Origin: Methyloterricola oryzae
Lineage (GTDB): Bacteria > Pseudomonadota > Gammaproteobacteria > Methylococcales > Methylococcaceae
NCBI RefSeq assembly: GCF_000934725.1
Contig: NZ_JYNS01000002.1
Coordinates: 434,001-498,000 of the forward strand
Length of the DNA stretch: 64,000 nucleotides
Direction: 5' to 3'
Each line of letters opens with the position of its first letter. Positions within the stretch are counted from its first letter, which is position 1. The notes beneath the pieces were generated by a model. That model saw nothing but the letters and a program-made list of their open reading frames with translations, did no database searches and was not told the DNA's origin. This document shows positions 36,746 to 64,000 of the stretch, piece after piece. Position numbers and translations under genes: made by a program.

Positions 36746-37830
36746 GCCGGCTTCCTCCTGCGCTGGGCCAGACCCACCAGGCCGTCCGGCATGAACACCG
36801 TCACCAGCACGAACAAGGCGCCCAGGGCAAACAGCCAGACCTCGGGCAATGCCGCGGTTAAGACCGTCTTGGAGTAATTCACCAAAACCGCGCCGATGAT
36901 GGCGCCGTACAGGGTCGCGCGCCCGCCTACCGCCACCCAGATCACCAGTTCCAGGGAATTAAGCGGTGAAAATTCACCGGGGTTGATGATGCCCACCTGA
37001 GGCACGTAAAGGGCCCCGGCGATGCCCGCCAGCACCGCCGAGAAAACGAACACCCACAGCTTGAACCATTCCACCCGGTAGCCGATGAAGCGCGTTCGCG
37101 CCTCGGCGTCGCGGATGGCCACCACCACACGCCCCAGGCGCGAGGTCACGATCATGCGGCAGGCCAGGTAAGCCAGGGCCAGGGCCAGGCCGCTGAGCAC
37201 GAAGAAAGCCACCCGCGTGCCTTCCGCCTGCAGGCTGAAACCCAGGATATCCTTGAAATCGGTCAGGCCGTTGTTGCCGCCAAAGCCCATCTCGTTGCGG
37301 AAGAAGGCCAGCATCAAGGCATAGGTCAGCGCCTGGGTGATGATGGAAAGATAAACGCCTGTCACCCGGGAGCGAAACGCCAGCCAGCCGAACACGAAAG
37401 CCAGGCTGCCTGGCACCAGCAGGATCATCAGGCAGGCGAACCAGAACTGGTCGAAGCCCAGCCAATACCAAGGCAGTTCCTTCCAGTTCAGAAACACCAT
37501 GAAGTCCGGCAGCAGCGCGTTGCCATAGACGCCGCGCTCGCCGATCTGGCGCATCAAGTACATGCCCATGGCGTAGCCGCCGAGGGCGAAGAAGGCGCCG
37601 TGTCCCAGGCTGAGAATGCCGCCAAAGCCCCAGACCAGATCCAGGGCCAGGGCCAGAAGGGCGTAACACAGATACTTGCCCAGCAGGGTCACGGTGTAGG
37701 TGGACACATGCAGCGGCGAGGACTCCGGCAGCGCCAGATGGAAGGCGGACACGAAGAACACCAGGGTGCCCAGGATGGTGAAAAAGATCACGCAGCAGCG
37801 ATCCTGCCGGATGAAGTCGGTCAGTCCCAT
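36742..37830 (-). CDS. urtC: Urea ABC transporter permease UrtC
   Basis: UrtC is a LivM-like integral membrane permease subunit. The protein of 362 residues has about ten hydrophobic helices, with GFGGILSLGHGAFFALGGYA and IRDAEARTRFIGYRVEWFKL as family markers; the latter is the cytoplasmic coupling loop to the ATPases. It starts 3 bp after the urtB stop and overlaps urtD. Confidence 0.93.
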   Translation of the reverse strand: MGLTDFIRQDRCCVIFFTILGTLVFFVSAFHLALPESSPLHVSTYTVTLLGKYLCYALLALALDLVWGFGGILSLGHGAFFALGGYAMGMYLMRQIGERGVYGNALLPDFMVFLNWKELPWYWLGFDQFWFACLMILLVPGSLAFVFGWLAFRSRVTGVYLSIITQALTYALMLAFFRNEMGFGGNNGLTDFKDILGFSLQAEGTRVAFFVLSGLALALAYLACRMIVTSRLGRVVVAIRDAEARTRFIGYRVEWFKLWVFVFSAVLAGIAGALYVPQVGIINPGEFSPLNSLELVIWVAVGGRATLYGAIIGAVLVNYSKTVLTAALPEVWLFALGALFVLVTVFMPDGLVGLAQRRRKPA

Positions 37831-37833
37831 GGT

Positions 37834-39489: not shown

Positions 39490-39562
39490 GATGGTTTTAT
39501 GTTTTTGCGGGCGTCCCTCTCCCGGATGCGGCGGCCTTCCCTGGCCGGCCGTGGAGCCTGGA

Positions 39563-40864
39563 TCAGTATTTCTGACCCGAGCACTTCTTGGTCTTGGTGT
39601 TGTAGTTGCCGCAGTTGATGGGCGGTGTCCAGTCGGCGATGATGGGCTTGCTTTCCGGCAGGAAGTCGGACCAGGCGTCACCATCCACCAGGCCCTTGGT
39701 CTGCCACACGGTCTGGAACTGGCCGTCGTCCTGGATCTCGCCGATCAGCACCGGCTTGGACAGGTGGTGTGCTTTGTTCATCTTCGCCACGCCGCCGGTC
39801 AGGTTGGGGTATTCGATGCCGATCATCGCCTTCTCCACCGCGTCGGTGTCGGTGGTGCCCGCCTTTTCCACCGCCTTCACCCACATATTGAAGCCGATGT
39901 AGTGAGCCTCCATGGGGTCGTTAGTGACGCGCTTCGGATTCTTGATGAAGGCGTGCCACTTCTTGATGAAGTCGGCGTTTTCAGGCGTGTCGACGCTCAT
40001 GAAGTAGTTCCAGGCGGCCAGGTGGCCCACCAGGGGCTTGGTGTCGATGCCGGAGAGTTCCTCCTCACCCACGGAGAAGGCCACCACCGGGATCTTGTCG
40101 GCGGTGATGCCCTGGTTGCCCAGTTCCTTGTAGAAAGGAACGTTGGCGTCGCCGTTGATGGTGGAAACCACCGCCGTCTTTTTCCCCGCGGAACCAAACT
40201 TTTTGATGTCGGCCACGATGCTCTGCCAGTCGGAATGGCCGAAAGGCGTGTAGTTGATCATGATGTCCTTGGCCTTGACGCCCTTGGACTTCAGATAGGC
40301 CTCGAGGATCTTGTTGGTGGTGCGCGGGTACACGTAATCGGTGCCCGCCAGCACCCAGCGCTTCACCTTGAGGTCGTTCATCAGATAGTCCACCGCCGGG
40401 ATCGCCTGCTGGTTGGGCGCGGCGCCGGTGTAGAACACGTTCTTGGACGATTCCTCGCCCTCGTACTGCACCGGGTAGAACAGCAGGCCGTTCAGCTCTT
40501 CGACCACCGGCAGCACCGACTTGCGGGACACCGAGGTCCAGCAGCCGAAGATGGCGGCCACCTTCTCCTTGGCCAGCAGCTCACGTCCCTTCTCGGCGAA
40601 CAACGGCCAGTTGGAGGCTGGGTCGACTACCACCGCCTCCAGTTTCTTGCCCAGCAGGCCGCCCTTCTTGTTCTGCTCGTCGATGAGCATCAGCATGGTG
40701 TCCTTCAGGGTGGTTTCGCTGATGGCCATGGTGCCGGAAAGTGAATGCAGAATACCCACCTTGATGGTGTCGGCTGCGCCCGCCCCTTCCCAGGCGAGAA
40801 GGAGCGTGGCGGCAGCCAGGAACGAACTAAGGCGCTTGGTCAAATCCATCTTTCTCAATTTCAT
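39563..40864 (-). CDS. urtA: Urea ABC transporter substrate-binding protein UrtA
   Basis: UrtA is the periplasmic binding protein that captures urea. The 433 residues begin with a signal peptide ending near AGAA, followed by DTIKVGILHSLSGTMAISET, which is the typical mature start. Further family segments are GCWTSVSRKSVLPVVEELN, LLFYPVQYEGEESSKNVFYT and YVYPRTTNKILEAYL. It is distinct in sequence from the binding protein at 57636. A porin gene lies just upstream on the same strand. Confidence 0.94.
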   Translation of the reverse strand: MKLRKMDLTKRLSSFLAAATLLLAWEGAGAADTIKVGILHSLSGTMAISETTLKDTMLMLIDEQNKKGGLLGKKLEAVVVDPASNWPLFAEKGRELLAKEKVAAIFGCWTSVSRKSVLPVVEELNGLLFYPVQYEGEESSKNVFYTGAAPNQQAIPAVDYLMNDLKVKRWVLAGTDYVYPRTTNKILEAYLKSKGVKAKDIMINYTPFGHSDWQSIVADIKKFGSAGKKTAVVSTINGDANVPFYKELGNQGITADKIPVVAFSVGEEELSGIDTKPLVGHLAAWNYFMSVDTPENADFIKKWHAFIKNPKRVTNDPMEAHYIGFNMWVKAVEKAGTTDTDAVEKAMIGIEYPNLTGGVAKMNKAHHLSKPVLIGEIQDDGQFQTVWQTKGLVDGDAWSDFLPESKPIIADWTPPINCGNYNTKTKKCSGQKY

Positions 40865-40908: not shown

Positions 40909-42165
40909 CTAGATCTGCAACTGCACGCCCAGCATGATCTGGCTGACGGAATCGCCCTTGGCGGTGTCGGTGAAGTTGAAATTGCCTTTGGTCAGCAGGT
41001 CGCCGTACATGTACATCAGCGAGACGCGCGCGTTATGGCCGTCAATGATGTAGTTGACGCCCGCCTCATATAGATTGCGGTTGGTGCTGTTGACCGGCAT
41101 GGTGTCGGTATAGCGGATGTAGGGCTGGAACTGGCCGATCCAGACTTTCTGCGGCATCAGATACATCAGGCTCAGGTCGAAGGCGTTGCCCTCGAACAGC
41201 GGGAAGCCCTTGACCGCGCCGGACTGCACCAGTTGCCGGGAGGTCATGTCGAAGCCTGTGATGCCGTAGTTCTTGTACTCGCCGTTGAAGGTGATGACAC
41301 CCATGTTCTCGGGCAGGTTCTGCTCGTACAGCACGTCCACCGAGGTGCCGCGGAAAGTGCCCGCGTCGCCGGCGATGCCGGCGCCATCCTCCTGGTACTG
41401 GTTGGCCACGCCAACGGTGAAGATGTCGCCGCCCTTGCCGTAGTACGTGCCGCTGGTGTAGTAGCCCGGATTCTTTTCCACATCCAGGAAGTTGTAGGAC
41501 ACGCGCTGGGCGTAAAGGATGTTGTCGTCCTTGTTGGCGCCGCCGCGCAGGCCGCGGAAGAAGCCCGCCACGTATTGCAGGCGGCCTTCGAAGAAAGCAC
41601 CCCAGATGTTGGCGCCGTCGTCGCGGCCAATGGCGCCGGCGGACGTGCCGTCGTTGAAGTAGCGCACGTTCAGGTCGGAAGGCTCGAACGGCGTGCCGCC
41701 GCCGAAGGTGTTATAGATGGCGCTGTAGAAGGGGCCGTTCAGTTCGCGGCGTTCCGCGGCCACCAATTGGCGGCCGACCCAGAGGTTGAACTCAGGCATG
41801 ATCTCGAACTTGGCGATGGCGTCCAGCATCATCACGTCGCCCCCCTGGCTGCTGGTGCAGGGGAAACATTCGGTGTTGAACTCCAGCTTCACATACTTGT
41901 GAATCTGACCGTTGATGTAGATACGGGCGTTATCCAGGTTGAAATCGTTGCTCCACTTGCCGTCCGCCGCGCCTTCGGTGGCGGTGAAGCTGCTGCGGAT
42001 ACCGGCGCCGATGCTGATCCACTTGGTGTCGTCGATCTTGAAGGTGGCGCCGCCGTAGGACACCGGCGCGTAGGTAGCCGCCGCCGAAAGCAAGCCGACG
42101 GACAGCAGCGACGCAAGGGTTCCGGTACCCGCCGTCCGCCTGATCTTCGTTTCTGCGTTATTCAT
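40909..42165 (-). CDS. Outer membrane porin at the head of the urt-ure run
   Basis: The protein of 418 residues has an N-terminal signal peptide (about residues 14-38) and alternating polar/hydrophobic strands with many Tyr, Gly, Asn and Asp typical of a beta-barrel. It ends with a C-terminal strand that closes in isoleucine (MLGVQLQI), while most porins end in phenylalanine. It looks like a phosphate/carbohydrate-selective porin relative, but its position 44 bp ahead of urtA suggests urea or amide passage. This is inference. It has two cysteines (CFPC) near residue 98. Confidence 0.8.
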   Translation of the reverse strand: MNNAETKIRRTAGTGTLASLLSVGLLSAAATYAPVSYGGATFKIDDTKWISIGAGIRSSFTATEGAADGKWSNDFNLDNARIYINGQIHKYVKLEFNTECFPCTSSQGGDVMMLDAIAKFEIMPEFNLWVGRQLVAAERRELNGPFYSAIYNTFGGGTPFEPSDLNVRYFNDGTSAGAIGRDDGANIWGAFFEGRLQYVAGFFRGLRGGANKDDNILYAQRVSYNFLDVEKNPGYYTSGTYYGKGGDIFTVGVANQYQEDGAGIAGDAGTFRGTSVDVLYEQNLPENMGVITFNGEYKNYGITGFDMTSRQLVQSGAVKGFPLFEGNAFDLSLMYLMPQKVWIGQFQPYIRYTDTMPVNSTNRNLYEAGVNYIIDGHNARVSLMYMYGDLLTKGNFNFTDTAKGDSVSQIMLGVQLQI

Positions 42166-42491
42166 TAAAGCCCCCTAGGGAATTGGGATGAGTTGACTGT
42201 CATTTGGGTGACCGTTGTGTCTGGCCGCCCCGCTCCAGGCGCTGTAGTTTTCTCGGCGCTTGACGGCTTCCCGCGCAAGCGCCCTGTCCGCCGAACCCGA
42301 CGCTCTCTGCGGCGGTTGCTGTCCGATCTTGTTCGGGCTCATTACATTGGCGCGCGGAACTTGTCACAATCAGTCAAATGACGTATCTACCTGCGTAGGC
42401 ACGGGGCTTAGAGTGCACTGGCGGGCTGCTGCGAAGGGGCGGGGCCCGACGCGGGCCGTACCCATCAACCGAGGAAAGAAGGACACACGCT
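42166..42491. other. Divergent regulatory region between porin-urt-ure and lipoprotein genes
   Basis: About 325 bp with no gene. It must hold the promoter for the porin-Urt-urease run (minus) and for the lipoprotein (plus). An 11-bp motif AGTCAAATGAC (42372-42382) recurs in the region ahead of the second transporter at 59011. A dyad GTCA-TTTGGG-TGAC lies at 42199-42212. A strong Shine-Dalgarno sequence (GAGGAAAGAAGGA) precedes the lipoprotein ATG. I found no convincing sigma-54 element. Confidence 0.5.
42372..42382. promoter_or_regulatory. Shared AGTCAAATGAC motif, copy 1
   Basis: GTCA-AA-TGAC is an inverted repeat located about 208 bp before the porin start on the minus strand. The same 11 bases occur in the divergent region between the second urtA-like gene and the permease-kinase. 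Candidate binding site of an unidentified regulator. Confidence 0.4.
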
Positions 42492-52529: not shown

Positions 52530-53762
52530 TCAGTTGAGGTCTGGCGACATGGGTATGTCGACGCCGCCGGTGATATGTTTCACCGGCCCCTTGGAACTGG
52601 GCATCACGTCGAAGTCGAAGATATCCGTGGGCAGCCATAGGGTGGCGCAGGCATTGGGTATGTCCACCACGCCGCTGATGTGGCCCTGGACCGGCGCGGT
52701 GCCCAGGATGGAATAGGCCTGGGCCTTGGAATAGCCGAACTTGGTCAGGTACTCGATGGCGTTGAGGCAGGCCTGGCGGTAGGCAACGTGCACGTCCAGG
52801 TAATGCTGCTTGCCCCATTCGTCCACCGAAATGCCTTCGAAAATCAGGTAGTCGTTGTAATTGGGGGTGATGGGGCTGGGCTTGAACACCGGGTTCTTGA
52901 TGCCGTACTTGGACACGCCGTCCTTGATGATGTCCACCTTCAGGTGCAGCCAGCCCGCCATCTCGATGGCCCCGCAGAAGGTGATCTCGCCGTCGCCCTG
53001 GCTGAAGTGCAGGTCGCCCATGGACAGGCCGCCGCCGTCAACGTATACGGGGAAATAGATGCGCGAGCCGCGCGAGAGGTCCTTGATGTCGCAGTTGCCG
53101 CCGTGCTCGCGGGGCGGCACCGTGCGCGCGCCTTCGGCCGCGGCCTTGTCCTTGGCATCGCCGCTCAGCCGTCCCATGTGGGCGGTGGGTCCGCAGGGCG
53201 GGCAGGCCAGGGGCGGAACCCGGTCAGGGTCGGACGCGATGAAGTCCATTTCCCGCTCGTTCCAGGTGTCCAACAGTTTTTTGTCGGGCAGGCAGCCGAT
53301 GAGGCCGGGATGGATCAAGCCGGCGAAGTTCACGCCGGGCACGTGTCGGGAATGGGTGAACATGCCGCTGATGTCCCAGATGGACTTTTGTGCCAGGGGG
53401 AAGTGATCGGTGAGGAAGCCGCCGCCGTTCTTTTTCGAAAAGAAGCCGTTGAAGCCCCAGAGGCTCTCGGGCTTGGCCCCCACGTCCAGCAGGTCCACAA
53501 CCAGCAGATCGCCGGGCTCGGCCCCCTTCACGCCGATGGGACCGCTGAGGAAGTGCACGATGGTCAGATCGATGTCGCGCACATCGTCGGCGCTGTCGTT
53601 GTTCTTGATGAAGCCGCCGGTCCAGTCGTAGGTCTCGATGATGAAGTCGTCGCCGGGATTGACCCAGGCCACGATGGGAATGTCCGGGTGCCAGCGGTTG
53701 TGCACCATGTCGTTGTCATAGGGCGATTGGGACAGGTCGATCTTGATTAGGGTGTCAGCCAT
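52530..53762 (-). CDS. fmdA: Formamidase
   Basis: FmdA hydrolyses formamide (and other short amides in relatives) to formate and ammonia. The 410 residues belong to the acetamidase/formamidase family, with IPIVAWVNPGDDFIIETYDW, FLSGPIGVKGAEPGDLLVV, the metal-region segment GNCDIKDLSRGSRIYFPVYV and MGDLHFSQGDGE. It is cytoplasmic and forms multimers in relatives. The gene lies downstream of the second Urt-type transporter on the same strand, so that transporter probably supplies its amide substrate. Formate would be an energy source for a methylotroph. Confidence 0.95.
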   Translation of the reverse strand: MADTLIKIDLSQSPYDNDMVHNRWHPDIPIVAWVNPGDDFIIETYDWTGGFIKNNDSADDVRDIDLTIVHFLSGPIGVKGAEPGDLLVVDLLDVGAKPESLWGFNGFFSKKNGGGFLTDHFPLAQKSIWDISGMFTHSRHVPGVNFAGLIHPGLIGCLPDKKLLDTWNEREMDFIASDPDRVPPLACPPCGPTAHMGRLSGDAKDKAAAEGARTVPPREHGGNCDIKDLSRGSRIYFPVYVDGGGLSMGDLHFSQGDGEITFCGAIEMAGWLHLKVDIIKDGVSKYGIKNPVFKPSPITPNYNDYLIFEGISVDEWGKQHYLDVHVAYRQACLNAIEYLTKFGYSKAQAYSILGTAPVQGHISGVVDIPNACATLWLPTDIFDFDVMPSSKGPVKHITGGVDIPMSPDLN

Positions 53763-53981: not shown

Positions 53982-54671
53982 CTAGACCGAAAGGAAGCGG
54001 GCGATGGATTCCACGTCCGCGTCCTCACGCTGGGCTTCGTGCACGAAACGGCCTTTCTCCAGCACCAGCAGCCGGTCCGCCATGTCCAGGGTAAAGCTGA
54101 GCACCTGCTCGGAGACCAGGATGGATAGGTTCTTGAGCTTGCGGATGGTGTCCAGGGTGCGGGCCAGTTCCTTGATGATGGAGGGCTGGATGCCCTCGGT
54201 GGGCTCGTCCAGCAGCAGCACGGCCGGTTCGCTCACCAGGGCGCGGGCGATGGCTAACTGCTGTTGCTGGCCGCCCGAGAGATTGCCTGCCTTGCGCCTG
54301 CGCATGTCGAACAGAGCCGGGAAGATGTCGTAGATCTCGCTGGGGACGCTGCTCATCTTCGGCTGGTGCATGCCGGTGCGGATGTTCTCCTCCACGCTGA
54401 GGGTGGGGAACACCATGCGCCCCTGGGGCACGTAGGCCAGGCCCTTGCGCACACGTTGAAAGCTCTCGTCGTGGGCCAGTTCCGCGCCCTTCAGCCGGAT
54501 CGAGCCGGACGCCACTGGCAGGATGCCCATGAGGGTCTTGAACAGGGTGGTCTTGCCCATCCCGTTGCGGCCCATCACCGCGAGAATCTCGTTCTCGCCC
54601 ACGGTGAAGGCCAGGTCGTGGATCACGGCGCTTTGCCCGTATCCGCAGTTCAGATTGCGTACTTCCAGCAT
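53982..54671 (-). CDS. Second Urt-type ABC transporter ATP-binding protein (UrtE-like)
   Basis: The 229-residue ATPase has Walker A GRNGMGKTT, signature LSGGQQQQLAIARAL and Walker B VLLLDEPTEGIQPSII. It is the LivF/UrtE-type subunit of the transporter encoded at 53982-58871. The relatives in Methylophilus are the FmdDEF short-chain amide and urea transporter. It follows the UrtD-like gene by 36 bp. Confidence 0.9.
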   Translation of the reverse strand: MLEVRNLNCGYGQSAVIHDLAFTVGENEILAVMGRNGMGKTTLFKTLMGILPVASGSIRLKGAELAHDESFQRVRKGLAYVPQGRMVFPTLSVEENIRTGMHQPKMSSVPSEIYDIFPALFDMRRRKAGNLSGGQQQQLAIARALVSEPAVLLLDEPTEGIQPSIIKELARTLDTIRKLKNLSILVSEQVLSFTLDMADRLLVLEKGRFVHEAQREDADVESIARFLSV

Positions 54672-54707
54672 GGTGTGACCTCTTGATTCAATGGGGCGGC
54701 TTAGGGA

Positions 54708-55454
54708 TCAATGGCCGAGATAGGCCTCGATCACCCGCGGGTCGGACTGCACGCGCTCCATGCTGCCTTCCACCAGCACCTTTCCCTGATGCAGCACGGT
54801 GACCTTGTGGGCGATGGCGCGGACGAACTCCATGTCATGCTCAATCACCAGCACCGAGCGGTTCTGGCTGATGCGCTGAAGCAGCTCGGCGGTCTGCTGC
54901 CGCTCGCGCACGCTCATGCCCGCCACCGGCTCGTCCAGCATCAGCAGTTCCGGGTCCTGCATCAGCAGCATGCCGATCTCCAGCCACTGCTTCTGGCCAT
55001 GGCTGAGCAGCCCCGCCTGGGTGTCCAGGCTGTCCGCCAACTGGATCTCCTCGGCCACGGAACGCACCCGCGACTCCACGTCGGGGGTGCTGCGGAAGAA
55101 CAGGCTGCCGAACACGCCGCGGCCGCGGGGAAAGGACACCACCAGGTTCTGGTAGACGCTCAGGTCCTCGTAGATGGATGGCGTCTGGAACTTGCGGCCG
55201 AGGCCCTGTCGCACGATCTCGTGCTCCTTGAGGCGGGTCAGCTCGATGTTCTTGAACATCACCGAGCCAGAGCTGGCCTTGGTCTTGCCGGAGATGAGGT
55301 CCACCAGGGTGGTCTTGCCGGCGCCGTTGGGTCCGATGATGACCCGCACCTCCCCCGGGTCCAGGTAGAGGGACACTTCGTCCACCGCCTTGAAACCATC
55401 GAAGGAGACGGTGATGCCTTCCACCGCCAGCAGAAAATCTTTGTGTGCGGTCAT
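54708..55454 (-). CDS. Second Urt-type ABC transporter ATP-binding protein (UrtD-like)
   Basis: The 248-residue ATPase has Walker A GPNGAGKTT, RKFQTPSIYEDLSVYQNLVV and Walker B LLMLDEPVAGMSVRERQ, with LSHGQ at the signature position as in UrtD. It is the LivG-type subunit. It starts 9 bp after the UrtC-like gene. Confidence 0.9.
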   Translation of the reverse strand: MTAHKDFLLAVEGITVSFDGFKAVDEVSLYLDPGEVRVIIGPNGAGKTTLVDLISGKTKASSGSVMFKNIELTRLKEHEIVRQGLGRKFQTPSIYEDLSVYQNLVVSFPRGRGVFGSLFFRSTPDVESRVRSVAEEIQLADSLDTQAGLLSHGQKQWLEIGMLLMQDPELLMLDEPVAGMSVRERQQTAELLQRISQNRSVLVIEHDMEFVRAIAHKVTVLHQGKVLVEGSMERVQSDPRVIEAYLGH

Positions 55455-55463
55455 GGTTTCACC

Positions 55464-56615
55464 TCAGCCTTTCTGGTTGATGGGATGGCTGCGATCCGCC
55501 GGCAGGTGGTGGCGCAAGGTGGTCAGCCAGCGCCAGAAATCCACGAAGGGCTTGATGGGGCCCGAGGCGAACAGGCCGGCCAGGCCGTTGGGAAAGAACA
55601 TGACCACGCCGATGAACAGGCTGCCCATGAGGATCAGCCACAGATCCGGGAAGGCCTCGGAGAAATAGGTCTTGCCGTAGTTCACCAGCAGGCAGCCGTA
55701 GACCGCGCCCACCAGGGACAAGCGTCCGCCCACGGCGGCGAAGATGACCATCTCGATGGACGGCACGATGCCCACGAAGGAGGGCGACATGAAGCCCACC
55801 TGCAGGGTGAACATGGCCCCGCCGATGGCCGAGAACATGGCGGCCACGCAGAAGATGAAGACCTTCAGGTCCGCCACGCTGTAGCCGGAGAAGCGCACCC
55901 GCTCCTCCTTGTCGCGCATGGCCACCAGCAGCAGGCCCAGCTTGCTGCCCAGGATGAAGCGGCTGGCCAGCAGGCACAGCATCAGCAGCACGGCATTGAC
56001 GAAGTACAGGACGTACTTTGCGCTGTCGGTGCGGATGTCCCAGCCCATGAGGGTCTTGAGGTCGGTGATGCCGTTGATGCCGCCGGTGTAGCCCTGCTGG
56101 CCGACGATGAGGGTGCTCAGGATCAGCGCCACGGCCTGGGTGATGATGGCGAAATACACCCCGCCCACCCGCCGCTTGAACATGGCCAGGCTCAGCAGAT
56201 AGGCGAGGAGCGTGGGCGCCACTAGGATGGCCAAGAGGGTGAAGGCCAGGCTGTGGTAGGGTTCCCAGAACCAGGGCAAGGCCGTGAGCTGGTTCCAGTC
56301 CATGAAATCGGGAATGCCCGGCGTGCTCTGGATGGCGGTGCTCACCGGGTCCGAGGCCTCCAGTTTGAGGAACATGGCCATGCAGTAGCCGCCCATGCCG
56401 AAAAACACCCCCTGCCCCAGACTGAGGATGCCGCCGTAGCCCCAGCACAGCACCAGCCCGAGGGCGACGAAGGCGAAGCTCAGGTACTTCCCAACCAGGT
56501 TGAGCCGGAACAGGCTGAGCCCAAGGGGAAACACCAGGAAAATCAGCGCGGCGAGGATGGCCAGTTGGCGCCACTCCGCGGGTATGCGTCGGTACAAGTC
56601 GATCAGGCGCGTCAT
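55464..56615 (-). CDS. Second Urt-type ABC transporter permease (UrtC-like)
   Basis: The 383-residue LivM-like permease has about ten membrane helices, the WGYGGILSLGQGVFFGMGGY start segment and the coupling loop AMRDKEERVRFSGYSVADLK. Compared with urtC at 36742 it shares the architecture but differs clearly in sequence, so these are not recent duplicates. It lies 31 bp after the UrtB-like gene. Confidence 0.9.
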   Translation of the reverse strand: MTRLIDLYRRIPAEWRQLAILAALIFLVFPLGLSLFRLNLVGKYLSFAFVALGLVLCWGYGGILSLGQGVFFGMGGYCMAMFLKLEASDPVSTAIQSTPGIPDFMDWNQLTALPWFWEPYHSLAFTLLAILVAPTLLAYLLSLAMFKRRVGGVYFAIITQAVALILSTLIVGQQGYTGGINGITDLKTLMGWDIRTDSAKYVLYFVNAVLLMLCLLASRFILGSKLGLLLVAMRDKEERVRFSGYSVADLKVFIFCVAAMFSAIGGAMFTLQVGFMSPSFVGIVPSIEMVIFAAVGGRLSLVGAVYGCLLVNYGKTYFSEAFPDLWLILMGSLFIGVVMFFPNGLAGLFASGPIKPFVDFWRWLTTLRHHLPADRSHPINQKG

Positions 56616-56646
56616 CTTCGTTCTCCGATTTTTGTATTCTGCGTGT

Positions 56647-57564
56647 TCAGCGGCGAACCTTGGCCGAGAACAGGCCCTCCGGCCGCATCATCAGGATCAG
56701 CACCACCGACACCAGGGTCAGCACCTTGGCGGTGGAGCCGGTCATCAGGAACTCCAGCACCGACTGCGCCTGGCCAATGGCGAAGGCGGAGGCGATGGTG
56801 CCGAGGATGCTGGCGGCGCCGCCGAACACCACCACGAGGAAGGTGTCGACGATGTAGAGGGAACCGCTGGTGGGACCGGTAGAGGCGATGGTGGTGAAGG
56901 CCGCGCCCGCAACACCCGCCAGTCCGCAGCCCAGCGCAAAGGTGAGGCGGTCGATGCGCTTGGTGTCGATCCCCACGGCTCCGGCGATCACCCGGTTCTG
57001 GCTGATGGCACGAACGCCCAGGCCCCAGCGCGACTTGAACAGCATCAGCGCCACGCCGGCGGTCACCACGGCGGACAGCCCGAGGACGAACAGGCCGCTG
57101 ATGGGCAGGTCGATGCCCTCGGCGGGCTGCATGGAGCCCATGATCCATTCCGGCAATTCGGGGCTGACTTCACGCGCGCCGAAGGCGGAGCGGAAGATCT
57201 GCTGCAATATCAGGCTGGCACCCCAGGTGGCCAGCAAGGTATCCAGAGGCCGCTTGTACAGATGGCGGATCAGCAGGATCTCCATCAAATAACCCGCCGC
57301 GCCGGCGATAATGAAGGCCGCCAGCAGGGCGAACGGGAAATACACGTCCAGCAGCTCGTGCTCCTGTGCGAACTGGGACATCACATAGGTGGTGTAGGCG
57401 CCGATGGCCATGAACTCGCCGTGGGCCATGTTGATCACGCCCATCTGGCCGAAGATGATGGCCAGCCCCAGGGCCATCAGCAGCAACACGCTGAAGAGGC
57501 TGAGGCCGGCGAAGCCCTGCATCAGTAAAGTGGCGAAGATTTCGGAACTGCTTGCGTCGCCCAT
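56647..57564 (-). CDS. Second Urt-type ABC transporter permease (UrtB-like, short form)
   Basis: The 305-residue LivH-like permease starts at ATG 57564. It has the GQMGVINMAHGEFMAIGAYT motif and the VRAISQNRVIAGAVGIDTKR coupling loop. It lacks the 230-residue periplasmic N-terminal domain of urtB at 37834. A 60-bp longer frame upstream has no support. A perfect palindrome separates it from the binding-protein gene. Confidence 0.9.
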   Translation of the reverse strand: MGDASSSEIFATLLMQGFAGLSLFSVLLLMALGLAIIFGQMGVINMAHGEFMAIGAYTTYVMSQFAQEHELLDVYFPFALLAAFIIAGAAGYLMEILLIRHLYKRPLDTLLATWGASLILQQIFRSAFGAREVSPELPEWIMGSMQPAEGIDLPISGLFVLGLSAVVTAGVALMLFKSRWGLGVRAISQNRVIAGAVGIDTKRIDRLTFALGCGLAGVAGAAFTTIASTGPTSGSLYIVDTFLVVVFGGAASILGTIASAFAIGQAQSVLEFLMTGSTAKVLTLVSVVLILMMRPEGLFSAKVRR

Positions 57565-57597
57565 GGCGCTGCTCCTGGTTGAATTCGCTGGGTCTAG

Positions 57598-57625
57598 GGT
57601 GCCCCGGGAACGTTCCCGGGGCACC
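57598..57625 (-). other. Perfect 28-bp palindrome between binding-protein and permease genes
   Basis: Two 14-base arms (GGTGCCCCGGGAAC and its exact complement) meet without spacer, so the transcript can form a very stable hairpin. There is no T tract on the minus strand. Its place between the abundant binding protein and the permease suggests an mRNA stabiliser or partial attenuator giving more binding protein than permease. Confidence 0.7.
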
Positions 57626-57635: not shown

Positions 57636-58871
57636 TTACTGGTAGCCCTCCGGGAAGGGGTTGGGCTCGATCAGGCCGGACTCGTAGACCACGTCCACCT
57701 GGCCGTCCTTCTTCCATTTGCCGATGCGCAGCTTGCTCCACAGGTGATGGTTGGGATGGATCTTGACGTAGCCTTCCGGCGCGGTCTTGAGCTCGATGCC
57801 GGGCGATGCCGCCGCCACCTTGTCCACGTCGAAGCTGCCGGCCTTCTCCACCGCCGCCTTCCACAACCAGGGGCCGAGGTAAGCGGCCTGGGTCACGTCG
57901 CCGATCACGCTGTCGGCGCCGTACTTGGCCTTGAAGGCCTCCACGAACTTCTTGTTGTTTTCGTTATCCAGGGACTGGAAGTACTTCATGGCGGAATAGA
58001 AGCCCACCACGTTCTCCCCGCCGATGCCCTTCACCTCGTCCTCGGTGGTGGAGATGGTGAGCAAGGTCTGTTTGTCGGCGGTGATGCCAGCCGCCTTCAA
58101 CTGCTTGAACCAGGACACGTTTGAGCCGCCCACCACGACGCTGTAGATCACGTCGGGCTTGGCCAGCTTGACCTTGTTGATGAGGGAGCGAAAGTTGGTG
58201 TGGCCCAGGGGGTAGTATTCCTCGCCCACCACCTTGCCCTTGAGCACGTTCTCGATGTGCTTGCGGGCGATCTTGTTGGAGGTGCGCGGCCAGATGTAGT
58301 CCGAGCCGATCAGGAAGAAGGTCTTGGCGCCCTTCTCCTTCGCCACCCAGTCCAGGCCCGCGATGATCTGCTGGGTCGCCTCCTGGCCGGTGTAGATCAC
58401 GTTCTTGGACTGCTCCAGCCCCTCGTAGAAGGTCGGGTAGTAGAGCAGGCCGTTTTCCTTCTCGAACACCGGCAGCACCGCCTTGCGCGAGGCCGAGGTC
58501 CAGCAGCCGAACACCGCAGCCACCTTGTCCTTGACCAGGAGCTTGCGGGCCTTCTCGGCGAAGGTGGGCCAGTCGCTGGCGCCGTCTTCCTTGATCACCT
58601 GGATCTTGCGTCCGAGCACGCCGCCCATGGCGTTGATCTGATCGATGGCCAGCAGTTCGGCCTGGATCGATCCGATTTCGCTGATGGCCATGGTGCCGGT
58701 GGCAGAATGCAGGTCACCGACGGTGACCGTGCTGTCGGTGACGGCGAGGCCGGTGGTGTTCACCTCGGCGGACCGGGTGGCGGGCGCCGCCAGGGCGAGC
58801 CCCATGGCAATGCCGGCGGCGAGGGTGCGCCAGGCGGGCCCGTGCGGAGCCAGATAGGAACGTAGCGTCAT
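57636..58871 (-). CDS. Second Urt-type substrate-binding protein (short-chain amide/urea)
   Basis: The 411-residue protein has a signal peptide (AAGIAMGLALAAPATRSAE) and the core TVTVGDLHSATGTMAISEIG, GCWTSASRKAVLPVFEKENG and NVIYTGQEATQQIIAGLDWV. These resemble UrtA but match more closely the FmdD short-chain amide binding proteins found with formamidase. Substrate may be formamide, acetamide or urea. It heads the second transporter run and is divergent from the permease-kinase gene at 59225. Confidence 0.88.
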   Translation of the reverse strand: MTLRSYLAPHGPAWRTLAAGIAMGLALAAPATRSAEVNTTGLAVTDSTVTVGDLHSATGTMAISEIGSIQAELLAIDQINAMGGVLGRKIQVIKEDGASDWPTFAEKARKLLVKDKVAAVFGCWTSASRKAVLPVFEKENGLLYYPTFYEGLEQSKNVIYTGQEATQQIIAGLDWVAKEKGAKTFFLIGSDYIWPRTSNKIARKHIENVLKGKVVGEEYYPLGHTNFRSLINKVKLAKPDVIYSVVVGGSNVSWFKQLKAAGITADKQTLLTISTTEDEVKGIGGENVVGFYSAMKYFQSLDNENNKKFVEAFKAKYGADSVIGDVTQAAYLGPWLWKAAVEKAGSFDVDKVAAASPGIELKTAPEGYVKIHPNHHLWSKLRIGKWKKDGQVDVVYESGLIEPNPFPEGYQ

Positions 58872-59224
58872 GATGTGCCTCTCGTGCTGTCAGGAAGTGG
58901 GCTGGAACCGTTGCGGGCGGCCGGCATGCCGTGTGGCGGCAGCCGATTCCCGCGTCGGGACCTATTACGCAGCGCGCGGGCCCCGGGGACAATTCGTCGA
59001 TTGACGGCTAAGTCAAATGACTTATTGGGAACTGTCGGGGTATGGGATTAGATAACGCGCGTGTCCTGCGCGGTGCGGCGCGCCCTGACCCGGTGCACGC
59101 ACGCCATGGAATGCGGCCCGGGCACCGCGCAGTTCCCTGACCGGCGGCGCCAAGGCATGGCGATTGCTGATGCCTGATTGATGCTGACGGCGGCCCCGGC
59201 CGCCGACCCGATTGACGAGATGCC
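58872..59224. other. Divergent regulatory region between second transporter and permease-kinase
   Basis: This 353-bp gap must hold promoters for both the second transporter run (minus) and the permease-kinase gene (plus). It contains the perfect dyad AAGTCA-AA-TGACTT (59010-59023), whose core AGTCAAATGAC also occurs before the porin. I found no sigma-54 element or NtrC dyad of good quality on either strand. Confidence 0.5.
59010..59023. promoter_or_regulatory. Shared AGTCAAATGAC motif, copy 2 (AAGTCA-AA-TGACTT)
   Basis: A 6-bp perfect inverted repeat with 2-bp spacer, about 139 bp before the second binding-protein gene. It is the fuller version of the motif at 42372. The response regulator at 62607 is a possible binder, but this is inference. 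Confidence 0.45.
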
Positions 59225-62200
59225 ATGACCACGCCGCCGCAGAAGATCCTCAAGACCCGCCGGGATTACAACACCTGGGTCGCCAACGAGATGATGGAGG
59301 ACTATGCGCTGCGCTACGCGCCCAAGGGCTTTCGCAAATGGTCCGAGTTCCGGGTGGCCAACACGGCCTTGGGCGCGGTGTCCTTCCTGGCCCTGGAAGC
59401 CATCGGCGGCACCCTGGTGATCAACTACGGCTTCACCAACGCCGCCTGGGCGATCCTGGTGGTGGGCGCCTTGATCTTCTTGACCGGCCTGCCCATCAGC
59501 TACTACGCCTCGCGCTACAACCTGGACATGGACCTGCTCACCCGCGGCGCGGGCTTCGGTTATATCGGCTCGACGATCACGTCGCTGATCTACGCCTCCT
59601 TCACCTTCATCTTCTTCGCCCTGGAAGCGGCCATCATGTCCCTGGCCCTGGAGCTGTATCTGGACATCCCGCTGCCGGTGGCCTACATCGTCAGTTCCCT
59701 GGCCATCATTCCCCTGGTCACCCACGGCATCACCTGGATCAGCCGGCTGCATGCCTGGACCCAGCCCCTGTGGCTGGTGCTGATGGTCTTGCCTTTCCTG
59801 ATGATCCTGTGGCGCAAGCCGGAATTGATCAGCGACTGGCAGACCTTCGCCGGCCGCAACGAACTCGGAACCGGGTTTTCGCCCCTCGCCTTCGGCGCGG
59901 CGGCGACGGTGGCTTTCTCCCTCATCGTGCAGATCGGCGAGCAGGTGGATTTCCTGCGCTTCCTGCCGGAGAAGACGCCCGCCAACAGCAAGCGTTGGTG
60001 GATCGCAAACCTCGTGGCGGGCCCGGGCTGGATCGTGCCGGGCATGGCCAAGCAGTTCGGCGGCGCCTTTCTCGCCTTCGTGGTGGTGCAGCACGAGGTG
60101 CCGCTGGAGCGCGCCAGCGAGCCCACCCAGATGTATCTGGCCGGTTTCCAGTATGTCTTCGCCGATCCCCGGGTGGCGGCCCTGGCCATGACCGTGTTCG
60201 TGGTGCTGTCCCAGGTGAAGATCAATGTGACCAACGCCTATGCCGGGTCCCTGGCCTGGTCGAACTTCTTCTCGCGCCTCACCCACAGCCACCCCGGCCG
60301 CGTGGTGTGGCTGGGATTCAACGTGGCGATCGCCTTCCTGCTCATGGAACTGGGGGTGTTCGGCGCCCTGGACCAGGTGCTGGGCCTTTATTCCAACGTG
60401 GCCATCGCCTGGGTGGGGGCCTTGGTGGCGGACCTGGTGGTGAACAAACCGCTGGGGCTGAGCCCGCCCTATGTGGAATTCATGCGTGCCCACCTCTACG
60501 ACATCAACCCCGTGGGCGTCGGCTCCATGCTCATCGCCTCGGCCCTGGCCATCGCCGCCCACGGCGGGCTCTTCGGCGAGCCCTACCAGTCCTTCGCGCC
60601 CTTCATCGCCCTGCTCACCGCCTTCCTGCTGGCCCCCGTCATCGCCGCGCTGACCCGCGGCCGCTTCTACATCGCCCGCGAGCGCCCTGACGTGGCGCAA
60701 CTGGAACATCAGGAGTGCTGCATCTGCGGCCGCGACTTCGAACCCCAGGACAAAACGGTGTGTCCGGTCTACGAAGGGGTGATCTGCTCATTGTGCTGCA
60801 GCCTGGACGCCCGCTGCGGCGACGCCTGCAAGCCTTCCGCGCGCATCGCCGAACAGATCGGCGCCGCCGCGTCCTTCCTGCTGCCGGCGTCGCTGCCGGC
60901 GGTGGTGCGCACCCGCATCGTGCAGTATCTGGTGGTCTTCATCAGCCTCGCCACCGTGCTGGCGGCGGTGGTGGGCATCATCTACTACCAGGAGCTGATC
61001 CAGTACCCGGCGGTCACCGGCGCCGATGGCGACTTCCTGGCCTCGGGCTTCCTCAAGATCTACCTGGCCCTGCTGGTGCTCATGGGCATCGGCGCCTGGT
61101 GGCTGGTGCTCACCGAGGACAGCCGGCGCACGGCCCAGGACGAATCCAACAAGCAGACCCGGCTGTTGCTCAAGGAAATCGACGAACACCGCCGCACCGA
61201 CGCCAAGCTGGCCCAGGCGCGGGACGTCGCGGACAAGGCCAACCTGGCCAAGAGCCGCTTCCTGGGCGGCATGAGCCACGAGTTGCGCAGCCCCCTCAAC
61301 AGCATCCTGGGCTACAGCGAGATCGTCCTGGCCGACCCGAACCTGGCCGAGAAGCATCGGGAGTACGTCAACATCGTGCATCAAAGTGGCGAGCACTTGC
61401 TGGCCCTGATCGACGACATGCTGGATATCGCCCGCATCGAGTCGCGCAACCTGCAATTGCGCCCGCAACCCTTCGAACTGCCGCTACTGATCAACCAGTT
61501 GTCCAGCTTCAGCCAACTGGAAGCGGAGAAACGCGGCCTGGCCTTCCGCCTGGACGTGCAGGGCACGCTGCCCCTGCTGGTCAAGGGCGATCAGCGCCGC
61601 ATCCGGCAGATTCTCATGAACCTCTTGAGCAACGCCGTCAAGTTCACCCCCCAGGGCGAAGTGCTGTTCGGGGTGCGCTATGCCGGGGAGATCGCCCACT
61701 TCGAAGTCCGGGACACCGGCATCGGGATCGCCCGACAAGACCAGGAGGTTATCTTCCAGCCCTTCCAGCGCCTGGCCTCGGTCAGCCAGTACCACACGGA
61801 AGGCACGGGGCTCGGCCTCACCGTCACCAAGATGCTCACCGATAACATGGGCGGCGAGATCACCCTGGAGAGTGAGCCGGGCCAGGGCAGCACCTTCCGC
61901 CTGCGGTTGTTCCTGCCCAAGCTGAACGGGACCGCGCCCCAGGCCACCTCGGACTGGGTGAGCGGCTACCATGGCCAGCGCCGCACCATCCTGGTGACGG
62001 ACGACCACCCGGCGCAGCGCGCCATGCTGGTCAGCCTGCTCACCGGGCTGGGCTTTTCGGTGCGCCAGGCCGACTCGGGCGCTTCCTGCCTGGAAGCGGT
62101 GGCCCAGGCGGCGCCGGACCTGGTCCTAATGGACCTCATCATGCCGGTGATGGACGGCTTCGAGACGGCGCGCCTGCTGCGCCGGAGCGGTTACCAGGGC

Positions 62201-62602
62201 CCCATGATCGTGGTGTCGGCGAACGCCTACGAATCGGACTTCACCGCCGCCATGGAGTCCGGCTTCAACGATTACATCGCCAAGCCAGTGCGCATGTCGG
62301 AACTCAAGGACAAGCTGAAGGCCCTGCTGGGCCTGCAATGGCGCTACGAGCAGCCCAGGCCCATCAACGGCGCGACGGCCTCGCGCGCGCCCCAGGCCCC
62401 GGCGGAACTGTGCCTGCCGGCTTCGGACACCTTGAAAGGCCTGCTGCACTTCGCACAGATCGGCTACATCAGCGGCATCGAAAACTACCTCCGGGACCTG
62501 GAAGGCAAAGACCCTGCCTACCGCCCCTTCGTGGCCCATGCCACAGCCCTGGCGAAGCAATACCGCCTGAGGGAACTGCAGCAACTGTTCAGCGGAGAAT
62601 AG
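59225..62602 (+). CDS. NCS1-type permease fused to hybrid histidine kinase
   Basis: This 1125-residue protein joins a transporter to a sensor kinase. Residues 1-490 form about 12 helices of an NCS1 (cytosine/purine/allantoin) type permease. A Cys-rich module follows (about 494-537, ECCICGRDF, ICSLCCSL, RCGDACKP; nine Cys), probably metal-binding. Then come two more helices (about 560-640), a HisKA domain with phospho-His685 (MSHELRSPLNS), a HATPase domain (NLLSNAVKFT, DTGIGIA, GTGLGL) and a receiver domain with phospho-Asp970 (LVLMDLIMP). A helical tail without an HPt histidine ends it. I expect it to sense or transport a nitrogen compound and signal to the regulator at 62607. Confidence 0.85.
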   Translation: MTTPPQKILKTRRDYNTWVANEMMEDYALRYAPKGFRKWSEFRVANTALGAVSFLALEAIGGTLVINYGFTNAAWAILVVGALIFLTGLPISYYASRYNLDMDLLTRGAGFGYIGSTITSLIYASFTFIFFALEAAIMSLALELYLDIPLPVAYIVSSLAIIPLVTHGITWISRLHAWTQPLWLVLMVLPFLMILWRKPELISDWQTFAGRNELGTGFSPLAFGAAATVAFSLIVQIGEQVDFLRFLPEKTPANSKRWWIANLVAGPGWIVPGMAKQFGGAFLAFVVVQHEVPLERASEPTQMYLAGFQYVFADPRVAALAMTVFVVLSQVKINVTNAYAGSLAWSNFFSRLTHSHPGRVVWLGFNVAIAFLLMELGVFGALDQVLGLYSNVAIAWVGALVADLVVNKPLGLSPPYVEFMRAHLYDINPVGVGSMLIASALAIAAHGGLFGEPYQSFAPFIALLTAFLLAPVIAALTRGRFYIARERPDVAQLEHQECCICGRDFEPQDKTVCPVYEGVICSLCCSLDARCGDACKPSARIAEQIGAAASFLLPASLPAVVRTRIVQYLVVFISLATVLAAVVGIIYYQELIQYPAVTGADGDFLASGFLKIYLALLVLMGIGAWWLVLTEDSRRTAQDESNKQTRLLLKEIDEHRRTDAKLAQARDVADKANLAKSRFLGGMSHELRSPLNSILGYSEIVLADPNLAEKHREYVNIVHQSGEHLLALIDDMLDIARIESRNLQLRPQPFELPLLINQLSSFSQLEAEKRGLAFRLDVQGTLPLLVKGDQRRIRQILMNLLSNAVKFTPQGEVLFGVRYAGEIAHFEVRDTGIGIARQDQEVIFQPFQRLASVSQYHTEGTGLGLTVTKMLTDNMGGEITLESEPGQGSTFRLRLFLPKLNGTAPQATSDWVSGYHGQRRTILVTDDHPAQRAMLVSLLTGLGFSVRQADSGASCLEAVAQAAPDLVLMDLIMPVMDGFETARLLRRSGYQGPMIVVSANAYESDFTAAMESGFNDYIAKPVRMSELKDKLKALLGLQWRYEQPRPINGATASRAPQAPAELCLPASDTLKGLLHFAQIGYISGIENYLRDLEGKDPAYRPFVAHATALAKQYRLRELQQLFSGE

Positions 62603-62606: not shown

Positions 62607-63560
62607 ATGAGCACCGTCAAACTGCCGGACCGGGAAGTCGTGCTGATCGTCGACGACACCCCCGCGAACCTCAGCCTGCTCACCATCGCCCTGGATCAGG
62701 CCGGCCTGGTGGCCTTGGTGGCCCTGGACGCCTACATGGCGCTGGAACAGCTCAAGCTAATCCAGCCCAGCGTGATCCTGCTGGACCTGATCATGCCGGG
62801 CATGGACGGCTTCGAACTGTGCCGAAGGCTCCAGGCCGACCCCGCGACACGAGACATCCCGGTGATCTTCATGACCGCCATGGACGATACCGAGCACATG
62901 GTGCAGGGATTTTCCGACGGCGCCGTGGATTATGTGGTCAAGCCCGTGCGGCCCACCGAGGTGGTGGCGCGCATCCAGTCGCACCTGCGCCGCTCCCGCC
63001 ACTCGCGGCAAGCGCGCGCCGCCCTGGAAAGCATGGAGCGCGCGGCGGTGGCCCTGGACGCCGAGGGCAATGTGCTGTGGATGACGGACCAGGCGCAGCA
63101 TCTGATGACGCGTAACTACCCGGAGTGCGAGAGCCGCTGCAACCACTGCGGGAGACTGCCGGCTGAACTGGCCGAATGGGCGCGGGTAGCCTTGGCCCAG
63201 GGAACCGAGGCCGTGTGCGGCTTCGGCGTGACCCCGAATGGCGTGCGCATGAACGCCACCATCAAGCCCGACGCGGGTCTGCGCGGCGGTATCCTCTGGA
63301 TCAGCGAGGAAAAGGAGGAGAAAGAAGAGAGACAGGCCTGGGCCATGGACTCGGTGCGCGAGCAGCTTGGCTTGACTGCCCGCGAGGCGGAAATCCTGAT
63401 GTGGGTCGCCTATGGCAAGACCAACCGGCAGATCGGCGAGATTCTGGGCATCAGCCCGCGCACGGTGAACAAGCACTTGGACCACGTTTACATGAAGCTC
63501 GGCGTGGAGACCCGCGCCGCCGCCACCGCCATCGCCATCCGCAACAGCCAGGCGGCTTGA
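62607..63560 (+). CDS. Response regulator with receiver, PAS-like and LuxR-type DNA-binding domains
   Basis: The 317-residue protein has a receiver domain (about 9-125) with phospho-Asp60 (VILLDLIMPGMDG), a middle PAS-like stretch (about 140-235) with cysteines in ESRCNHCGRLP, and a LuxR/NarL helix-turn-helix at the C-terminus (LTAREAEILMWVAYGKTNRQ). It starts 4 bp after the permease-kinase stop, so the two form a cognate pair. The targets should be transport or amidase promoters of this island. The PAS-like middle could bind a ligand or metal. Confidence 0.9.
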   Translation: MSTVKLPDREVVLIVDDTPANLSLLTIALDQAGLVALVALDAYMALEQLKLIQPSVILLDLIMPGMDGFELCRRLQADPATRDIPVIFMTAMDDTEHMVQGFSDGAVDYVVKPVRPTEVVARIQSHLRRSRHSRQARAALESMERAAVALDAEGNVLWMTDQAQHLMTRNYPECESRCNHCGRLPAELAEWARVALAQGTEAVCGFGVTPNGVRMNATIKPDAGLRGGILWISEEKEEKEERQAWAMDSVREQLGLTAREAEILMWVAYGKTNRQIGEILGISPRTVNKHLDHVYMKLGVETRAAATAIAIRNSQAA

Positions 63561-63855: not shown

Positions 63856-64000
63856 GTGGGGGCACTGGGTCAGCAGTCCATCGCCAAGATCAGGCGCGAT
63901 TACAACGCCTGGGTCGCCAACGAGACCCTGGAAGACTACGCCCTGCGCTTCACCCCCCGTTCCTTCCGCAAGTGGTCGGAATGGCGGGTGGCCAACACCG
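63856..64000 (+). CDS. Second NCS1-permease-kinase paralogue, N-terminus only (3' end cut by window)
   Basis: Only 48 codons are visible, from a GTG with GAGGAA at good spacing to the last base. The peptide contains RRDYNAWVANETLEDYALRF then FRKWSEWRVANT. These match the start of the permease-kinase at 59225 at 28 of 37 aligned residues (my count by eye). Whether the kinase half is also present cannot be seen. It has its own predicted NtrC/sigma-54 control, unlike the first copy. Confidence 0.8.
   Translation, partial: MGALGQQSIAKIRRDYNAWVANETLEDYALRFTPRSFRKWSEWRVANT

Follow-up and report, generated by a model that had tools for sequence, protein, structure and literature searches.

Locus and architecture of the sensor

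A 64,000-nucleotide stretch of the Methyloterricola oryzae genome (contig NZ_JYNS01000002.1, positions 434,001 to 498,000; the window) encodes a sensor histidine kinase, HK1, in which a membrane domain resembling NCS1 transporters is fused to a kinase and a receiver. As an earlier note on this DNA had proposed, the gene belongs to a nitrogen-scavenging island. Besides urease genes and two urt clusters, the island has allophanate-hydrolase and AtzE/AtzG-like genes, a gene for an isochorismatase-type hydrolase and the formamidase gene fmdA. That note placed HK1 at the end of the island. This proved wrong, as a second sensor gene, HK2, begins at 63856 and its regulator gene, RR2, follows outside the window. 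HK1 itself is followed after 4 bp by the response regulator gene RR1, and the urt2 cluster and fmdA form a divergent operon on its other side. We consider it likely that HK1 senses urea and short amides as a hybrid histidine kinase of the transceptor type, with formamide the most likely ligand of this copy. The domains, fold, conservation, neighbours, operator-like repeats and the two sensor-regulator pairs were computed; the ligand, the direction of control, the zinc, the phosphotransfer and whether the domain still transports are our reading of them.

Our coordinates and Pfam agree with the 1125-residue reading frame previously described for 59225-62602, with its HisKA, HATPase_c and receiver domains. 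From the N-terminus, HK1 comprises an NCS1-like domain, an eight-cysteine (8-Cys) module, a transmembrane (TM) hairpin, HisKA, HATPase_c, a receiver (REC) and a C-terminal helical segment (Table 1). HK1 is a hybrid histidine kinase whose HisKA, HATPase_c and receiver domains have their catalytic residues: H685 is present in 70 of 71 aligned rows (Asn in the other) and D970 in all 66 rows with a residue at that column. A histidine phosphotransfer (HPt) identity for the C-terminal helices was rejected. They are not an evident HPt, because the invariant and nearly invariant columns there contain no His.

AlphaFold2 models reached a pLDDT of 81.5 for residues 1-655 and a pLDDT of 80.7 with pTM 0.59 for the full-length protein. 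In the full-length model, the second hairpin helix is continuous with the first helix of the dimerisation and phosphoacceptor (DHp) domain. The resulting single helix, residues 600-702, would offer a direct mechanical path from the membrane to H685.

Relationship of the membrane domain to NCS1 transporters

The N-terminal part, residues 1-490, had been called an NCS1-type transporter. By Pfam alone this assignment fails, and it stands on the structural and profile comparisons. A Pfam scan of HK1 at E ≤ 0.1 left the transporter part unrecognised, PF02133 matched 0 of 38 homologues at E ≤ 1, and a Protein Data Bank (PDB) search with a profile of 38 sensors found no transporter. Among the matches listed for HK1 itself (the best 25 of 158 in NCBIfam and the best 60 of 316 in the PDB), all were to kinase and receiver domains, so these listings say nothing about the transporter part.

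The solved structures closest to the model of residues 1-655 were CodB (Z 33.2, 397 aligned residues) and Mhp1 (Z 28.6-25.8), with other LeuT-fold families following from Z 23.3 down. SLC5-type chains scored a Z of about 21-22 against the 33.2 of CodB, and no SLC5-family Pfam match was found. Foldseek returned the same leaders (CodB, E 1.2e-9; Mhp1, E 3.2e-9). A Pantoea 'cytosine permease' is 28% identical to the sensor over 485 columns (database E 2e-25) and itself passes the PF02133 cut-off, which links the sensor family to NCS1. This permease alone retrieved no NCS1 entry from the PDB with phmmer; a profile of the sensors together with such permeases matches Mhp1 there at E 8.6e-5. We accepted the NCS1 assignment on the basis of the structural search, the link through the Pantoea permease and the profile that combines sensors with permeases, since Pfam misses the transporter part of HK1. 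The NCBIfam cytosine permease model PRK11017 covers residues 25-191 at E 1.1e-6, below its cut-off. Since HK1 itself does not reach the curated cut-offs of PF02133, TIGR00800 and PRK11017, which are detection thresholds, we class its domain as a divergent NCS1-like clade and not as a member of a curated model.

In the mixed-profile alignment, counted by hand, N337 and E134 of HK1 correspond to N318 and Q121 of Mhp1, and K332/I333 stand at S312/T313, which we take to be the sodium-binding Na2-site residues of Mhp1. The Ser/Thr pair of TM8 at this site is not kept. E134, D242, R245 and N337 are invariant in 77 aligned proteins, and position 332 holds Lys in 75 of them and Arg in the other two. 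In Mhp1, a hydantoin carrier, Asn318 and Gln121 contact the substrate, and in CodB, which carries cytosine, two TM8 threonines are sodium ligands (PMC9379551; this and other papers are cited from excerpts of their text). Judged by these alignments, the NCS1-like domain seems to have retained its substrate site but not its sodium site. Because K332/I333 replace S312/T313, sodium coupling is unlikely. The Na2 site is not a universal requirement in NCS1 proteins, as uptake by MetT, another member, is reported to be sodium-independent (PMC13390362).

Two further loci encode NCS1 permeases that pass PF02133 and have nitrilase-type hydrolases and AmiC/UrtA-like binding proteins as neighbours (L155:7007-8500 and L157:4949-6442; L numbers designate loci). 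They are another amide-linked NCS1 branch. L155 also has an ANTAR regulator.

Stand-alone homologues and the cysteine module

Three homologues occur as stand-alone proteins. The Tsukamurella protein (562 amino acids (aa), 46% identity over 532 columns) is separated from fmdA by two genes, and its stretch has no kinase match. The Methylovirgula protein (549 aa) lies in a cluster with fmdB-fmdA, a sensor and a regulator. The Acinetobacter protein (548 aa) is encoded divergently from a sensor, and no fmdA match was found there, so that two of the three belong to formamidase clusters. Their substrate-site positions are the same as in the sensors. The existence of these proteins suggests that the NCS1-like domain can act alone, and they are probably amide permeases. 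The 'cytosine permease' msmeg_3402 and 'formamidase' msmeg_3403 of M. smegmatis are nitrogen-regulated (PMC4222082, PMC4617892) and are a lead only.

The nine cysteines counted in the earlier note lie at residues 498-535. Eight of them (C498, C501, C513, C521, C524, C525, C531 and C535) are invariant in 71/71 aligned kinase fusions. The module is probably cytosolic and zinc-binding, and the spacing of its cysteines suggests two zinc sites. It is not restricted to sensors, as the Methylovirgula stand-alone has all eight; the Acinetobacter protein has lost four and the Tsukamurella protein seven. In an alignment of 106 homologues, the commonest residue has an average share of 0.755 in the transporter core (20-485), 0.763 in the Cys module, 0.647 in the kinase (675-897) and 0.463 in the hairpin (550-630). 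These homologues were chosen by an N-terminal match, which favours the N-terminal part and somewhat inflates the contrast.

The NCS1-like domain and Cys module also occur with other kinase types. L158, L159 and the cyanobacterial L062 and L069 have a histidine kinase without REC, and L175:5353-8961 (minus strand) encodes a PAS-kinase. In a tree, the three stand-alones form one clade (100/97) within an eight-row clade (100/99) whose other five rows are non-REC or PAS kinases. The length of the outgroup branch prevents rooting, and the kinase fusion may have arisen once or more than once.

Partner regulator and second sensor pair

The adjacent LuxR-type regulator noted previously is confirmed by Response_reg and GerE matches at 62607-63560. 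Its phosphoacceptor D60 is kept in at least 95% of 55 aligned rows, and a regulator match above 120 bits was found in 54/56 sensor stretches of the phylum sample described below. By domain and phospho-Asp criteria, HK1 and RR1 are a two-component pair with a LuxR/NarL-type regulator.

HK2 is full-length and 56% identical to HK1, and RR2 likewise has a REC-LuxR architecture. HK2 falls in a 35-row clade of sensors from its own order (FastTree support 1.0) and HK1 lies outside it, so we regard HK2 as the native copy of the order and HK1 as an extra one, perhaps acquired together with urt2-fmdA. An earlier tree had grouped HK2 with just six named loci, five of them with a porin gene. We discarded this grouping as a sampling effect, because that tree lacked three identical sequences and the other genomes of the order. 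Identical sensor sequences occur in L022/L045 (Methylococcaceae), L030/L090 (Crenothrix) and L040/L095 (Methylococcales). As the 35-row grouping reflects descent first, the link between HK2 and a porin-urt operon is drawn from the order sample instead: in relatives within the order, the native sensor adjoins such an operon. HK1/RR1 adjoins urt2-fmdA. We infer that HK2/RR2 serves porin-urt1 (urea, with urease downstream in the window) and HK1/RR1 serves urt2-fmdA (formamide or urea). L173 and L174 likewise have two sensors within 10 kb.

Distribution and gene neighbourhoods

The N-terminal 629 residues of HK1 match 73/151 genomes of the order (own included) and 62/398 genomes of the phylum at E ≤ 1e-3, or 52/398 above 540 bits (own included). 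A further 531 plasmid records match the sensor, 342 of them from Klebsiella; a few of the matches are plain permeases. We surveyed neighbours in three samples. The phylum sample, which is an even one, holds all 56 places above 540 bits outside the own genome, with weaker and fragment matches dropped. The order sample holds 20 stretches hand-picked from strong matches in the order. The close relatives are the best 80 of at least 589 loci. All queries came from the window, so that the counts cover the neighbour types present there.

A survey of this kind had been suggested as a check on the link to urea and amide genes, and its outcome is positive. In the phylum sample, 54/56 examined stretches have urtA/B, fmdA or ureC (fmdA in 37, ureC in 10), and the two misses, L196 and L233, are cut by contig ends. 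Among the close relatives, a set biased to near relatives and in which the urt label may include related ATP-binding cassette (ABC) ATPases, the flanks contain urt in 76/80 cases, fmdA in 48/80 and the regulator in 59/80. Four lack urt: L077 carries urease, the contigs of L101 and L111 are 5.1 and 6.8 kb long, and L069 is a real exception. Urt, fmdA or urease accompanies 16/20 sensors of the order sample, and 16 of these relatives have a porin-urt operon. Only two urtA loci exist in the whole own genome, and the window contains both, so adjacency by chance would be rare.

AtzE/F-like matches lie near 1/56 sensors of the phylum sample, 1/80 of the close relatives and 1/20 of the order sample (L246), and isochorismatase matches near 2/20 of the order sample (L246 and L250). 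Five annotated neighbourhoods of kinase fusions name no nucleobase gene, though no search was aimed at such genes. Of the ligands listed in the earlier note (urea, biuret, formamide or a nucleobase), the urt, fmdA and ureC neighbourhoods favour urea and formamide-type short amides, and biuret-pathway genes are rare but not absent.

The annotated neighbourhoods include a Klebsiella oxytoca plasmid (one of the 342 records, read in detail), in which amiF-urtEDCBA is divergent from the kinase and a cyanuric acid amidohydrolase gene lies 9 kb from the sensor. Others are those on Sinorhizobium pSymB, on Paraburkholderia pBN4 (fmdB-fmdA-urt) and in Methylosinus (ure-urt). The Methylovirgula neighbourhood has fmdA-fmdB and no annotated urt, with a 161-aa UrtA-like open reading frame (ORF) downstream.

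The K. oxytoca plasmid (L121) is of the IncF type, and its formamidase-urtABCDE-sensor-regulator block lies near clpK/hsp20 and insertion sequence elements. At L246:1224-12705, isochorismatase, AtzF-like and GntR genes and a homologue of the 523-aa ORF described below immediately precede a sensor-regulator pair, and no urt match was found in the locus; this sensor is possibly a biuret-linked member. L177 (NZ_CP077849.1), labelled an Acinetobacter baumannii plasmid, has 3.66 Mb and 45 annotated features and is probably a chromosome.

A candidate operator

In near relatives, most urtA-sensor spacers contain a palindrome close to ATACGTCAATTGACGTAT, which also marks porin-urt promoters and is probably the operator. 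Scored on the spacers, the 16-position consensus ATACGTCA-NN-TGACGTAT occurs with up to three mismatches in 43/54 urtA-sensor spacers and with up to five in 50/54; shuffled spacers reach three mismatches or fewer in 4/5400 cases. With up to two mismatches, the 80 close loci (1.52 Mb) contain 78 sites versus two for the reversed pattern. Sites near fmdA occur in L042, L044, L048, L050, L053, L054 and L084, which are all Pseudomonas or Stutzerimonas and not independent, and sites near porin genes in L045, L073, L098, L109, L111 and L112. The phylum sample has 32 sites versus one for the reversed control, in 25/56 loci. The order sample has 16 versus none, and 15/16 porin-urt operons have a site upstream of the porin gene.

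Two sites lie in the window. The probable RR1 operator, TAAGTCAAATGACTTA at 59009, is palindromic except for its two central bases and carries a paired change. The probable operator upstream of porin-urt1, TCAGTCAAATGACGTA, has exact copies upstream of the porin gene in L237, L239, L241 and L248.

The Bradyrhizobium urtA-sensor spacers L108, L110, L116 and L118 contain a different palindrome, ATACGCAAGATCGCGTAT or close to it, perhaps a lineage-specific operator. On contig 24 of the own genome (L172:5515-5551), two operator-like palindromes 21 bp apart have no obvious target; by eye, the stretch also holds an ANTAR-like regulator and a porin-like gene.

Proposed function and alternatives

We propose that the NCS1-like domain binds a small amide at its central site and that this displaces the equilibrium between its inward and outward states. 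The Cys module, probably with zinc, and the membrane hairpin would relay this shift to the DHp helix. H685 would then be phosphorylated and pass the phosphate to D60 of RR1, directly or via D970. The terminal REC may be a sink or brake, because no HPt partner is evident. RR1 would bind the palindrome at 59009-59024 and turn on the divergent urtABCDE-fmdA operon. HK2/RR2 would do the same for porin-urt1, and perhaps urease, through the site at 42370.

Several points weigh against this proposal. We found no measurement of ligand binding, transport, bound metal or phosphotransfer. The operator consensus was derived from the spacers on which it was scored, and these are related sequences. At two mismatches or fewer, the site is missing from 31/56 phylum-sample loci. 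The two sites in the window are not significant by themselves, as 15/100 shuffles have as many, and across the genome the reversed control outnumbers the pattern (115 versus 50 at up to three mismatches). With the statistics of the window and of the own genome weak, it is the comparison between species that carries the case for the operator. In the examined stretch, no urtA/B, fmdA or ureC match was found for L069 (on a 232-kb contig), L246, L247, L250 and L253, and L246 and L250 carry biuret-type genes instead of urt. Some members have urease but no fmdA beside them and others fmdA but no urt, so a single ligand may not fit all members.

The NCS1 domain could be that of a true transceptor, still importing urea or formamide, with the kinase reporting transport turnover and not plain binding. 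This has an appreciable chance, though we think it rather unlikely. A stand-alone protein with the same domain and all eight cysteines lies in an fmdA cluster, sensors and stand-alones agree at the substrate site, and for CbrA both binding and transport of histidine have been reported (PMC13022988); the operon, however, already has a dedicated ABC importer, and a pure receptor role is equally compatible. The ligand might instead be another nitrogen compound (a nucleobase, hydantoin, biuret, cyanate or similar), the urea and amide genes being part of a general scavenging response. Such a ligand would suit the cytosine and hydantoin substrates of CodB and Mhp1 (PMC9379551), the biuret-type genes in the window and, without urtA/B, near the L246 and L250 sensors, and the cyanuric acid amidohydrolase of the Klebsiella plasmid. 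It is improbable in view of the scarcity of AtzE/F-like genes (1/56, 1/80, 1/20) and of the five annotated neighbourhoods that name no nucleobase gene, albeit with no search aimed at them.

It is quite improbable that the NCS1 domain serves as a docking site or membrane anchor and that the kinase senses UrtABCDE, or ligand-loaded periplasmic UrtA, and not the ligand itself. Sensor and urt genes are adjacent in most examined loci, as docking would predict, but L158, L159, L160, L161, L192 and L225 have fmdA or urease and no urt match in the examined stretch, and the conserved residues fall on the transporter's own substrate site. We rate as highly improbable that the Cys module is the main sensor, of metal, redox state or the nickel supply for urease, and the membrane domain only a scaffold. 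Urease needs nickel, and the eight cysteines are invariant in 71/71 kinase fusions. Against this stand the Tsukamurella stand-alone, which lost seven of the eight, the presence of the module in a stand-alone transporter, a transporter core that is as conserved (mean 0.755 versus 0.763), and loci with fmdA and no urease match.

A broader reading, to which we give an even chance, is that HK1 and its relatives form a receptor family for extracellular urea and short amides. Its members would have an NCS1 domain in which Lys replaces the sodium site and an 8-Cys module that stand-alone amide transporters also possess, joined to three or more kinase types (among them HK-REC, HK by itself and PAS-HK). 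In bacteria with several uptake operons, each operon would have one pair with its own operator variant, telling urea from formamide, and the stand-alones would be an unrecognised class of formamide/urea permeases. Bacterial detection of external urea and short amides seems poorly described, and the family is a concrete candidate receptor: its fold and partner regulator can be named, as can putative binding residues (E134, N337, K332, D242 and R245), and its operator is predicted. The family would add NCS1 to the transporter folds known as kinase receptors (SLC5 and Amt), and the stand-alone relatives would allow transport to be compared with sensing.

Comparison with known systems

CrbS/CrbR likewise joins a transporter-hybrid kinase fusion to a LuxR-type partner and an inverted-repeat operator (the ACTU motif) upstream of its targets (PMC5715377). 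It differs in its SLC5 domain and STAC linker, acetate genes and operator, whereas HK1 has an NCS1-like domain, an 8-Cys module, a TM hairpin and urea/amide genes nearby. CbrA of Pseudomonas also couples a LeuT-fold transporter to a histidine kinase, and coupling of transport to signalling has been proposed (PMC13022988, PMC7096432). It is an SLC5 protein for histidine with STAC and PAS domains, and the excerpts mention no terminal REC; the HK1 model matches NCS1 best. RpuS/RpuR of Sinorhizobium fredii is a transporter-kinase system controlling a transporter gene (PMC9100948), here of the SLC5/STAC type and with a pyruvate symporter as target. Ks-Amt5 resembles HK1 in linking a domain that transports a nitrogen compound to a histidine kinase (PMC5764959; name in PMC12918730), but has the Amt fold, responds to ammonium and comes from anammox bacteria. 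CodB and Mhp1 have the same fold and the top structural scores, and the Asn equivalent to Mhp1 N318 is kept in HK1; they differ in lacking a kinase and, for Mhp1, in having S312/T313 at the positions of K332/I333.

In Ectopseudomonas guguanensis G3, a urt operon, a hybrid kinase and a LuxR-type regulator are listed from annotation (PMC13296017, 2026); the excerpts recognise no transporter and propose no function, and we set this kinase beside HK1 by description only. The main text of a paper on the P. veronii fmdA-urt locus does not contain 'histidine kinase', 'LuxR' or 'two-component' (PMC13209695). The earlier note named no characterised NCS1-kinase, and among the matches listed in our literature search, with subscription journals mostly outside its scope, there was likewise no description of one and no kinase receptor for urea or formamide. 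The sensor family is widespread and apparently undescribed.

Other features of the island

Table 1. Features of the sensor locus and of the surrounding island (window coordinates).
Feature	Coordinates	Strand	Description and evidence
Sensor kinase HK1	59225..62602	+	Intact ORF, 1125 aa; ORF calls, Pfam, AlphaFold2 models
NCS1-like transporter domain	59282..60679	+	Residues ~20-485; CodB structural alignment 23..479; profile evidence
Cys module	60716..60829	+	Residues 498-535; alignments
Two-helix membrane hairpin	60902..61114	+	Residues ~560-630; full model; hydropathy peaks 568-586, 612-630
HisKA dimerisation/phosphoacceptor domain	61247..61444	+	Residues 675-740, H685; Pfam, alignments
HATPase_c catalytic domain	61586..61915	+	Residues 788-897; Pfam
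C-terminal receiver (Response_reg)	61988..62317	+	Residues 922-1031, D970; Pfam, alignment
C-terminal four-helix segment	62423..62590	+	Residues 1067-1122; full model, conservation; poorly conserved
Response regulator RR1	62607..63560	+	Response_reg (REC, D60), variable middle region, LuxR-type GerE helix-turn-helix; Pfam
Second sensor HK2, start	63856..64000	+	1119 aa, runs on to L009:11215 beyond the window; then RR2
Probable RR1 operator TAAGTCAAATGACTTA	59009..59024	.	urtA2-HK1 spacer; pattern match
urtA2, substrate-binding protein of the divergent uptake operon	57636..58871	-	TIGR03407 above cut-off
urtB2, urtC2, urtD2, urtE2	53982..57624	-	Match genes annotated urtB-E in L121
fmdA, formamidase	52530..53762	-	NF045496, 773 bits vs cut-off 500
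Probable operator TCAGTCAAATGACGTA upstream of porin-urt1, assigned to HK2/RR2	42370..42385	.	Pattern match
Porin gene heading the urt1 cluster	40909..42165	-	ExtI-type porin model, below its cut-off
urt1 cluster	35244..40864	-	urtA1 39563-40864, urtB1 37834-39684, then urtC/D/E-sized ORFs
Urease genes	29628..33443	-	ureC 31410-33443, ureF 30281-31294, ureG 29628-30266

Two ORFs between the isochorismatase-type gene and fmdA, of 523 aa (50458-52029, plus strand) and 150 aa (52085-52537, plus strand), have no Pfam match. In L246, the homologue of the 523-aa protein is encoded between the isochorismatase-type and sensor genes, and the 523-aa ORF may encode a permease of a biuret/amide set. Elsewhere in the window, a 924-aa ORF (22337-25111, plus strand) has multihaem cytochrome matches of the MtrC/c7 type.

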